Positions 5,301 to 22,008 of a DNA stretch of 45,190 nucleotides are shown here, piece by piece. The DNA lies in NCBI GenBank assembly GCA_029004515.1, contig JAQVYH010000010.1, positions 1-45,190 on the forward strand, read 5' to 3'. Source of the stretch: Eubacteriales bacterium. Lineage in GTDB: Bacteria; Bacillota; Clostridia; Monoglobales; UMGS1388. The notes under the pieces were generated by a model. That model was not told the DNA's origin. It ran no database searches and saw only the letters and a program-made list of their open reading frames with translations. The stretch's first letter is position 1; each line of letters opens with the position of its first letter. A program made the position numbers and the translations under genes.

Positions 5301-5636
5301 TTGAGTAAGTCAGACTGTCGCGGAGGTGGCAATTGCCATCGATGAGGAAAGTCCGGGCTTCATAGGGCAGGGTGCCGGGTAACTCCCGGTGGAGGCGACT
5401 CTAAGGATAGTGCAACAGAAATAGACTACCGCTTGCGGTACAGGTGGAAAGGCGAGGTAAAAGCTCACCGGCGTATAGGTAACTATGCGGCCATGTAAAC
5501 CCCATCCGATGCAACACCAACTGGAAGGCTTGAATCGGCCCGATTACTTCCGAAAGGTGGCTTGAGTGGTGTAGAGATACATCACCTAGATAGATGACAG
5601 TTTAATACAGAACCCGGCTTATAGATTTGCTCAATT
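5301..5636 (+). ncRNA. rnpB: RNase P RNA
   Basis: This is the catalytic RNA of ribonuclease P, which trims the 5' leader of tRNA precursors. The diagnostic 5' conserved block GAGGAAAGTCCGGGCTTC is at about 5342-5360, ACAGAA follows near 5414, and the conserved 3' block ACAGAACCCGGCTTATAG is at about 5607-5625. The ends pair as P1: TTGAGTAA near 5301 with TTGCTCAA near 5627. The arrangement resembles the ancestral A type, though I have not folded it. It lies between the Nif3-family gene and lexA and ends before a strong terminator. Exact ends are uncertain by a few bases. Confidence 0.95.
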
Positions 5637-5649
5637 ACTATTAAAACAA

Positions 5650-20377: not shown

Positions 20378-21685
20378 TTAGTCATGAAGCTTTCTCTTAT
20401 CGACAACTCTAACAGCTTTACCTTCGCTTCTTTGTATAGTTTTAGGTGGAACAAGGTGAACCTTGGCACTAATACCAAGCATCTTCTGCATTTCTGCAGC
20501 AAGGGCCTTTTCCTTTTCCATAATGTCCTTTACTGTATCTGAGAACTGCTCTGGTGGAAGTTCAACGTTTACATCAAGAGTATCTGTGTTATTAATACGG
20601 TCTATTTCGATCTGATAATTAGGTGTATATCCCTCAGCAAGAAGAACAGTTTCAATCTGTGATGGGAATACATTTACACCTCTTATAATAAGCATATCAT
20701 CGCTTCTACCCATTGGTTTGGTCATTTTAATAAGCGTTCTGCCGCAGGAGCATTTCTCTCTTGAAAGAACACAAATATCACGAGTTCTGTATCTAAGAAG
20801 TGGGAATGCTTCCTTTGTGATACTGGTGAAAACAAGTTCACCTTTTGAACCTTCAGGAAGTACTTCACCTGTATCTGGGTCAATAATTTCGGCGATAAAG
20901 TGGTCTTCATTAATATGCATACCAGTCTGTTCGCAGCATTCATAAGCTACTCCAGGACCACTTGTTTCTGTGAGTCCATAAATATCATAAGCCTTGATTC
21001 CAAGTGTTTTTTCAATGTCTTTACGCATTGCTTCTGTCCAAGGTTCAGCACCGAAAATTCCATATTTAAGGCTATTATCATCACCGGTAAGACCTAGTTC
21101 GTGTAAAGACTCTCCAATATATGCTGCGTATGATGGTGTACAGCATAAAATTGTGGCATTAAGATCCTGCATAAATTGGATTTGTCTATCTGTATTTCCG
21201 GATGACATTGGAAGTGTAAGGCATCCTACTTTGTGAGAACCACCATTAAGGCCAAATCCGCCTGTAAACAAGCCATATCCGTATGCAACCTGGCATATAT
21301 CATCTTTAGTACCACCAACTGCAACAATTGCTCTTGCACAGCAATCTTCCCACAGCTCAATATCGTTTTGTGTGTAAAAAGCTACTACTCTTGTACCAGT
21401 TGTACCACTTGTAGAATGGATTCTGACACAATCTTTTAGTGGAACAGCAAGGAGTCCATATGGATAAGCATCTCTTAAATCAGATTTCGAAAGGAATGGC
21501 AATTTATGCAAATCTTCGATTCCTTTAATGTCATCTGGTTTTACACCCTGTTCATCCATAAGATTTCTGTAGTACTCTACATTCTCGTACACATGCTTGA
21601 CCTGTTTGACCAATCTTTCGCTCTGTAGAGCCTTAATTGTCTCAAGGGATGCAGTTTCGATCTCTTTCTGGTAATAATTTGCCAT
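20378..21685 (-). CDS. paaK: Phenylacetate-CoA ligase
   Basis: This 435-residue adenylate-forming enzyme makes phenylacetyl-CoA (or an aryl-acetyl-CoA analogue) from the acid, CoA and ATP. The phosphate-binding loop HSTSGTTGTRV is at about 90-100. YGLTETSGPG and LLRYRTRDI are the adenine and hinge motifs, and LIIRGVNVFPSQIE is typical of PaaK. In anaerobic Clostridia such enzymes often accompany oxidation of aromatic amino acids by indolepyruvate-type oxidoreductases, but none is next door. Start ATG 21685 has GGGAGG before it; a TTG at 21700 is unlikely. A T-box leader controls it (see below), with a Phe specifier. Confidence 0.92.
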   Translation of the reverse strand: MANYYQKEIETASLETIKALQSERLVKQVKHVYENVEYYRNLMDEQGVKPDDIKGIEDLHKLPFLSKSDLRDAYPYGLLAVPLKDCVRIHSTSGTTGTRVVAFYTQNDIELWEDCCARAIVAVGGTKDDICQVAYGYGLFTGGFGLNGGSHKVGCLTLPMSSGNTDRQIQFMQDLNATILCCTPSYAAYIGESLHELGLTGDDNSLKYGIFGAEPWTEAMRKDIEKTLGIKAYDIYGLTETSGPGVAYECCEQTGMHINEDHFIAEIIDPDTGEVLPEGSKGELVFTSITKEAFPLLRYRTRDICVLSREKCSCGRTLIKMTKPMGRSDDMLIIRGVNVFPSQIETVLLAEGYTPNYQIEIDRINNTDTLDVNVELPPEQFSDTVKDIMEKEKALAAEMQKMLGISAKVHLVPPKTIQRSEGKAVRVVDKRKLHD

Positions 21686-21711: not shown

Positions 21712-21975
21712 CAAAAAAATCGCCCCCAGATTTTATCTGAGGACGAGTTAAACCCGTGATACCACCTCAATTTACAACCGTCTCGCAACGGTTGCCTCGC
21801 CGGGTACAATCAATACCCTTATGCTGTTACGGGCACTCCCGTCTACCTCTACTAGAAACTTTCAAGGAGAAGCTCTCAAGATGAATTCACCTTCTCTATT
21901 GCAACTGTCTCGCACCATACGACAGCTCTCTCAATGCCATTCAAGAGGTTACTTGTTCTTGGTCATAGCTTTTTA
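21712..21975 (-). promoter_or_regulatory. T-box riboswitch leader, probable Phe specifier, upstream of paaK
   Basis: Read on the - strand, the leader begins with a Stem I (AAAGCTATGACCAAGAACAAGTAA), continues through GGTGCGAGACAG and reaches a specifier loop GGTGAA-TTC-ATC (codon at 21885-21883), reading UUC = Phe. The T-box core AGGTGGTATCACGGG is at about 21753-21767; its UGGU would pair with the ACCA end of an uncharged tRNA whose discriminator base is A, as in tRNA-Phe. The terminator follows. Uncharged tRNA-Phe should allow read-through into paaK. The specifier was placed by eye; other frames of the loop would read differently. Confidence 0.88.
21714..21746 (-). terminator. T-box terminator before paaK
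   Basis: On the - strand CGTCCTCAGAT pairs with ATCTGGGGGCG around a short loop, then ATTTTTTT. It competes with the antiterminator that contains the T-box core. Confidence 0.87.
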
Positions 21976-21979
21976 AAGA

Positions 21980-22008
21980 ATTATATCATTACTTAATTTA
22001 AAAGTCAA
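21980..22008 (-). promoter_or_regulatory. Sigma-A promoter of the T-box/paaK transcript
   Basis: TTGACT (22003-22008) and TATAAT (21980-21985) are 17 bp apart on the - strand, placing the transcript start just before Stem I. Confidence 0.8.

Follow-up and report, generated by a model that had tools for sequence, protein, structure and literature searches.

A phenylalanine-type T-box leader upstream of a phenylacetate-CoA ligase family gene, and its Phe and Tyr counterparts among Clostridia

The window analyzed here, a stretch of 45,190 nucleotides from the genome of a Eubacteriales bacterium (assembly GCA_029004515.1, contig JAQVYH010000010.1, positions 1 to 45,190), carries a T-box leader between ftsY (22946-22038) and paaK (21685-20378) on its minus strand; elsewhere in the window, at 5302-5637 (+), lies an RNase P RNA of class A (268 bits). 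The features of the locus are as follows:

20378..21685, minus strand: paaK, phenylacetate-CoA ligase family, 435 aa (TIGR02155, 538.3 bits; PDB 2y27)
21720..21746, minus strand: intrinsic terminator of 12 pairs, then a T run (-17.8 kcal/mol, z -6.3)
21736..21975, minus strand: T-box leader (RF00230 covariance match), Stem I to antiterminator
21738..21768, minus strand: antiterminator hairpin with a 7-nt bulge containing UGGU (predicted, -9.0 kcal/mol)
21761..21764, minus strand: T-box bulge UGGU, unpaired in the predicted antiterminator fold
21883..21885, minus strand: specifier codon UUC (Phe), read from the sequence in the context GAA-UUC-A
21980..22008, minus strand: leader promoter TTGACT-17-TATAAT, with 11/12 consensus matches, ending just 5' of the T-box leader

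The minus-strand segment 21975-21736 matches the full RF00230 model at 130.4 bits (E 7.8e-29), above the gathering score of 93, and the same leader scores 204 bits with a covariance model of its relatives, for which the window supplied one of 18 training rows. The Stem I specifier loop holds a codon of NNC type, UUC, followed by a purine (A); T-box specifier codons are usually NNC. The fold of the whole leader beats 200/200 shuffles (z -3.0), compensatory changes occur at 22 of the 44 predicted pairs when 18 leaders are aligned, and the 3' strand of the antiterminator doubles as the 5' strand of the terminator, so that the two folds are predicted to compete. Judged from its letters, the UGGU bulge would pair with the ACCA of a tRNA bearing A73. 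The promoter is the best of seven promoter-like matches in the region, a class not above chance (6.4 expected). The paaK leader RNA is an ordinary T-box: the promoter, Stem I, TTC after GAA, TGGT and terminator described in a preliminary description of this DNA are all present, at the positions given there (21712-22008) and on the minus strand, which that description left unstated.

The next minus-strand gene after the leader is paaK, whose best start is the ATG at 21685, preceded by GGGAGGAAAG. No further gene on the same strand follows before a convergent galactoside-permease gene, in agreement with the initial view that the leader precedes paaK and nothing else, and no phenylacetate-catabolism gene was found among the typed neighbours of paaK. 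The product aligns over its full length with TIGR02155, at a score (538.3 bits) under the equivalog cut-off of 646.3; its top PDB match is the Burkholderia PaaK 2y27 (E 2e-127), and it also matches solved Bacteroides phenylacetate-CoA ligases. These similarities make it a PaaK-like ligase, short of a certified equivalog, with phenylacetate as its probable substrate.

The genome that contains the window is a fragmented assembly with an estimated contamination of 5.8%, in which a genome-wide search returned six T-boxes. One of these is the paaK leader, with its specifier UUC; another, Phe by its UUC-A reading, heads an operon with DAHP synthase (aroF) and prephenate dehydratase (pheA); those of trpE and trpB read UGG; one before an ileS-like gene, named from its first residues, reads AUC; and one (L007:397-161(-)) lies at the edge of a contig, before a helix-turn-helix gene, and probably reads AUC. 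The visible Phe regulon of this genome is de novo phenylalanine synthesis plus paaK. Since the shikimate-route pheA is also present in the organism, a phenylacetate route would be salvage and not the sole source of phenylalanine. The genome has a single copy of close PaaK and one IorAB pair, iorA being split by contig ends, with its halves at the start of two contigs (G000 C117:1-1071 and C78:1-672; L104, L105) and IorB on C78; this IorAB adjoins a second AMP-forming acyl-CoA ligase, on C117, and an ACT-domain protein. The proposed search for an indolepyruvate-type oxidoreductase with a T-box of its own came out in favour of the initial view: IorAB is encoded in the genome and is under a Tyr T-box in relatives, but a search of this genome's own iorAB locus, split over the two contig ends, found no T-box. 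Among the tRNA loci scanned in this assembly (30/38; L208-L237), tRNA-Phe, tRNA-Ile and tRNA-Ala are absent, perhaps lost with unassembled rRNA clusters.

Surveys of the genus and family contained this genome alone, and the order and class were sampled instead. A T-box lies immediately 5' of paaK at 17 of the 80 closest loci of this gene, and its specifier is UUC at all 17; at many others, iorA-iorB-paaK-ACT form one cluster. A covariance model (R1) built from paaK leaders was used to search 51 genomes of the order and 391 genomes sampled evenly across the class, and its stronger matches were read together with their downstream genes; the counts that follow, coming from a model derived from paaK leaders, are uninformative on true frequencies. 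The search retrieved 138 distinct T-boxes in Clostridia. Every one of the 35 distinct T-boxes directly 5' of paaK carries the specifier UUC, and one further UUC leader heads aroF (in G205, where it sits on aroF instead of paaK). The 63 clean UAC leaders, beside which stand two ambiguous cases, are followed first by a sodium:solute symporter (47) or by a second acyl-CoA ligase (16), the latter usually succeeded by iorA-iorB; a UAC leader directly 5' of paaK was found 0 times among the 138. Ile leaders, and leaders in which an inserted base displaces the specifier read (L267, L292, GAAUUACN), are left out of the clean UUC and UAC counts. With L267 and L292 set aside, the specifier agrees with the kind of first gene without exception, 36 UUC vs 63 UAC (Fisher p 8e-28, a value overstated by the relatedness of the leaders). 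The specifiers of paaK leaders and of symporter or ligase leaders differ at the second codon base only (UUC/UAC), and TyrS leaders, serving as a positive control with genes named from their first residues, align in the same frame and read UAC. The preliminary description had read a Phe specifier here; the aligned codon is indeed UUC, and it is conserved throughout the paaK-first set.

Both types, UUC on paaK and UAC on symporter, ligase or iorAB, occur together in 10 genomes (G030, G034, G039, G042, G066, G109, G183, G245, G265 and G393); 14 operons that begin with a UAC leader and contain iorAB have paaK at a later position. At one locus (L308) a Phe-T-box paaK-ACT pair is followed by DAHP synthase (aroF), prephenate dehydratase (pheA) and AroB, and at another (L303) by prephenate dehydratase (pheA) and AroB; R1 detected no second T-box in the gap of ~300 nt before these downstream genes. 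By this gene order, and not by regulation alone, paaK is grouped with phenylalanine synthesis. The symporters under Tyr T-boxes (PF00474; L072:3975-5531, L065, L180, L189 and others) often stand before ligase-iorA-iorB; their nearest NCBIfam model is PutP, below its cut-off, and they possibly import an aryl acid or tyrosine. In the genome of the window this symporter is represented by distant homologues alone (27% and 25%).

A tree of the leaders, computed with the specifier columns taken out, requires eight changes between Phe and Tyr, four of them forced by well-supported branches. The AU test weakly rejects a single clade for the Phe leaders as a whole (p 0.034; p 0.12 once L025 and L034 are set aside). 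Given this p 0.12 and the long branch of the window row, the tree favours, but does not prove, a separate switch to Phe in the lineage of the window. We consider it somewhat more probable than its negation that a reductive aryl-acid pathway is shared among Clostridia and divided over one T-box lineage by repeated one-base UAC/UUC switches, with Phe control on paaK and Tyr control on the symporter, on iorAB and on a second ligase, whose substrate is probably 4-hydroxyphenylacetate.

Other acid-activating enzymes also lie near amino-acid T-boxes. Probable AUC (Ile) T-boxes precede a fused HTH-cupin-AMP-ligase of 764 aa (L064:10657-10413(-), L074:10456-10211(-), L166, L167, L170, L173 and L201), and the genome of the window has one such T-box before its helix-turn-helix gene (L007); these pairings suggest a parallel route that would lead from a branched-chain acid to isoleucine. 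CUC (Leu) T-boxes were seen at L057:7881-8134 (CUG as aligned), L166:1358-1594, L167:6092-6329, L170:14370-14617 and L171-L178; the L057 operon holds a 2-isopropylmalate-synthase-like gene and then a fused acyl-CoA ligase, and at most of the other Leu loci a distant acyl-CoA ligase lies ~2.3 kb downstream. CAC (His) T-boxes, which score high with the model of paaK leaders, precede apparent binding proteins of amino-acid ABC transporters (L294:6497-6748(-) and L296:49-297(+)).

A T-box opens when the charged form of its tRNA runs short. In the mechanism that we propose, a shortage of phenylalanine would leave uncharged tRNA-Phe (anticodon GAA) to pair with the UUC specifier, its ACCA end would pair with UGGU, and the antiterminator would then prevail over the terminator, allowing transcription of paaK. 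PaaK would convert phenylacetate, drawn from the fluid of gut or rumen, to phenylacetyl-CoA, IorAB would carboxylate this reductively, with CO2 and reduced ferredoxin, to phenylpyruvate, and a transaminase would complete the route to phenylalanine. Such a conversion agrees with the presence, in a genome that encodes IorAB, of an acid-CoA ligase that Phe shortage would induce, and the biosynthetic reading follows both from the opening of the T-box on starvation and from the tendency of AMP-forming ligases to favour acyl-CoA synthesis. Phenylalanine synthesis from phenylacetate has been described for the rumen (PMC7356843). For a Bacteroides IOR encoded beside an arylacetate-CoA ligase, a biosynthetic role was suggested on the ground that ligases of the AMP-forming type favour the formation of acyl-CoA, and a reverse IOR has been proposed for methanogens and Bacteroides (PMC13285125). 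From the switch itself, in sequence and structure, and from its pairing with paaK across relatives, we infer the switching, the substrate and the direction of flux, and a transcription-attenuating Phe T-box combined with phenylalanine synthesis from phenylacetate by PaaK and IorAB is in our estimate the best explanation, with a probability of roughly 0.85.

Alternatives that accept the T-box differ in what PaaK would do. The enzyme might serve the degradation or fermentation of phenylalanine, IorAB oxidizing phenylpyruvate and PaaK handling the resulting phenylacetyl-CoA, as would accord with the oxidative action of related 2-oxoacid:ferredoxin oxidoreductases in gut acetogens (PMC13290082) and with the link between a Bacteroides IOR and phenylacetate formation (PMC13285125). 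The oxidative gut strains, however, have phosphate butyryltransferase and butyrate kinase downstream and no AMP-forming ligase (PMC13290082); the T-box would open on amino-acid shortage, when breakdown is self-defeating; and the grouping of Phe-T-box paaK with aroF, pheA and aroB points the other way, so that we regard degradation as improbable. The claim of the preliminary description that the ligase feeds synthesis rather than degradation accordingly gains comparative support, from UUC on paaK and from these neighbours in relatives, which suggest a biosynthetic role. Slightly less improbable, and still unlikely, is a starvation-induced T-box whose CoA thioester goes to a use other than phenylalanine (4-hydroxyphenylacetate, another aryl acid or a secondary product). 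The score of PaaK below its equivalog cut-off leaves room for this, as do the UAC operons that include paaK as a later gene, in which PaaK could also come under Tyr control; against it, the specifier is UUC whenever paaK is first and UAC if the symporter or the other ligase is first, as expected if the ligases differ in end product.

The specifier might instead have been misread, the leader sensing another tRNA through the frames AUU or UCA. Sequence alone cannot prove the frame, and tRNA-Phe is missing from the assembly, but UUC occupies the usual frame, at 2-4 nt from the bulge end, and accounts for 99% of Phe specifiers in TBDB (PMC7778990); the restriction of the difference between paaK and symporter or ligase leaders to the second base, and the frame shared with TyrS leaders, likewise tell against a misreading, which we hold to be very improbable indeed.

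The direction in which ligase/IorAB pairs of gut anaerobes work, toward aromatic amino acids or away from them, is a question raised for Bacteroides (PMC13285125). An RNA switch that senses starvation through tRNA, and whose codon can be read, informs both direction and end product from sequence; its specifier also offers a route to assigning ligase substrates. Our analysis points to recycling of phenylacetate, and perhaps of 4-hydroxyphenylacetate, by Clostridia of the rumen and gut; these compounds give rise to such host-relevant metabolites as phenylacetylglutamine and p-cresol. No T-box on paaK is named among the targets in Wels 2008 (PMC2494555), in the TBDB paper (PMC7778990) or in full-text literature searches, and the literature searched, a body that lies outside the TBDB tables and subscription T-box surveys, describes no aryl-acid pathway divided between Phe and Tyr T-boxes.

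In its Stem I, specifier loop, UGGN bulge, antiterminator/terminator switch and NNC specifier, the leader resembles Phe-class RF00230 T-boxes and differs from those in the papers searched in its target gene, here a phenylacetate-CoA ligase. The ligase shares its family with catabolic Burkholderia PaaK (2y27/2y4o), which it matches over the whole length, whereas its typed neighbours are free of catabolic genes and its control is of the amino-acid-starvation type. With the reductive aryl-acid route (the reverse IOR of methanogens and the rumen synthesis of phenylalanine from phenylacetate) the system has in common an aryl-CoA ligase, IorAB and an anaerobic habitat; it differs in occurring in Clostridia and in its link to Phe and Tyr through T-box specifiers, which supply independent evidence on the direction and product of the route.
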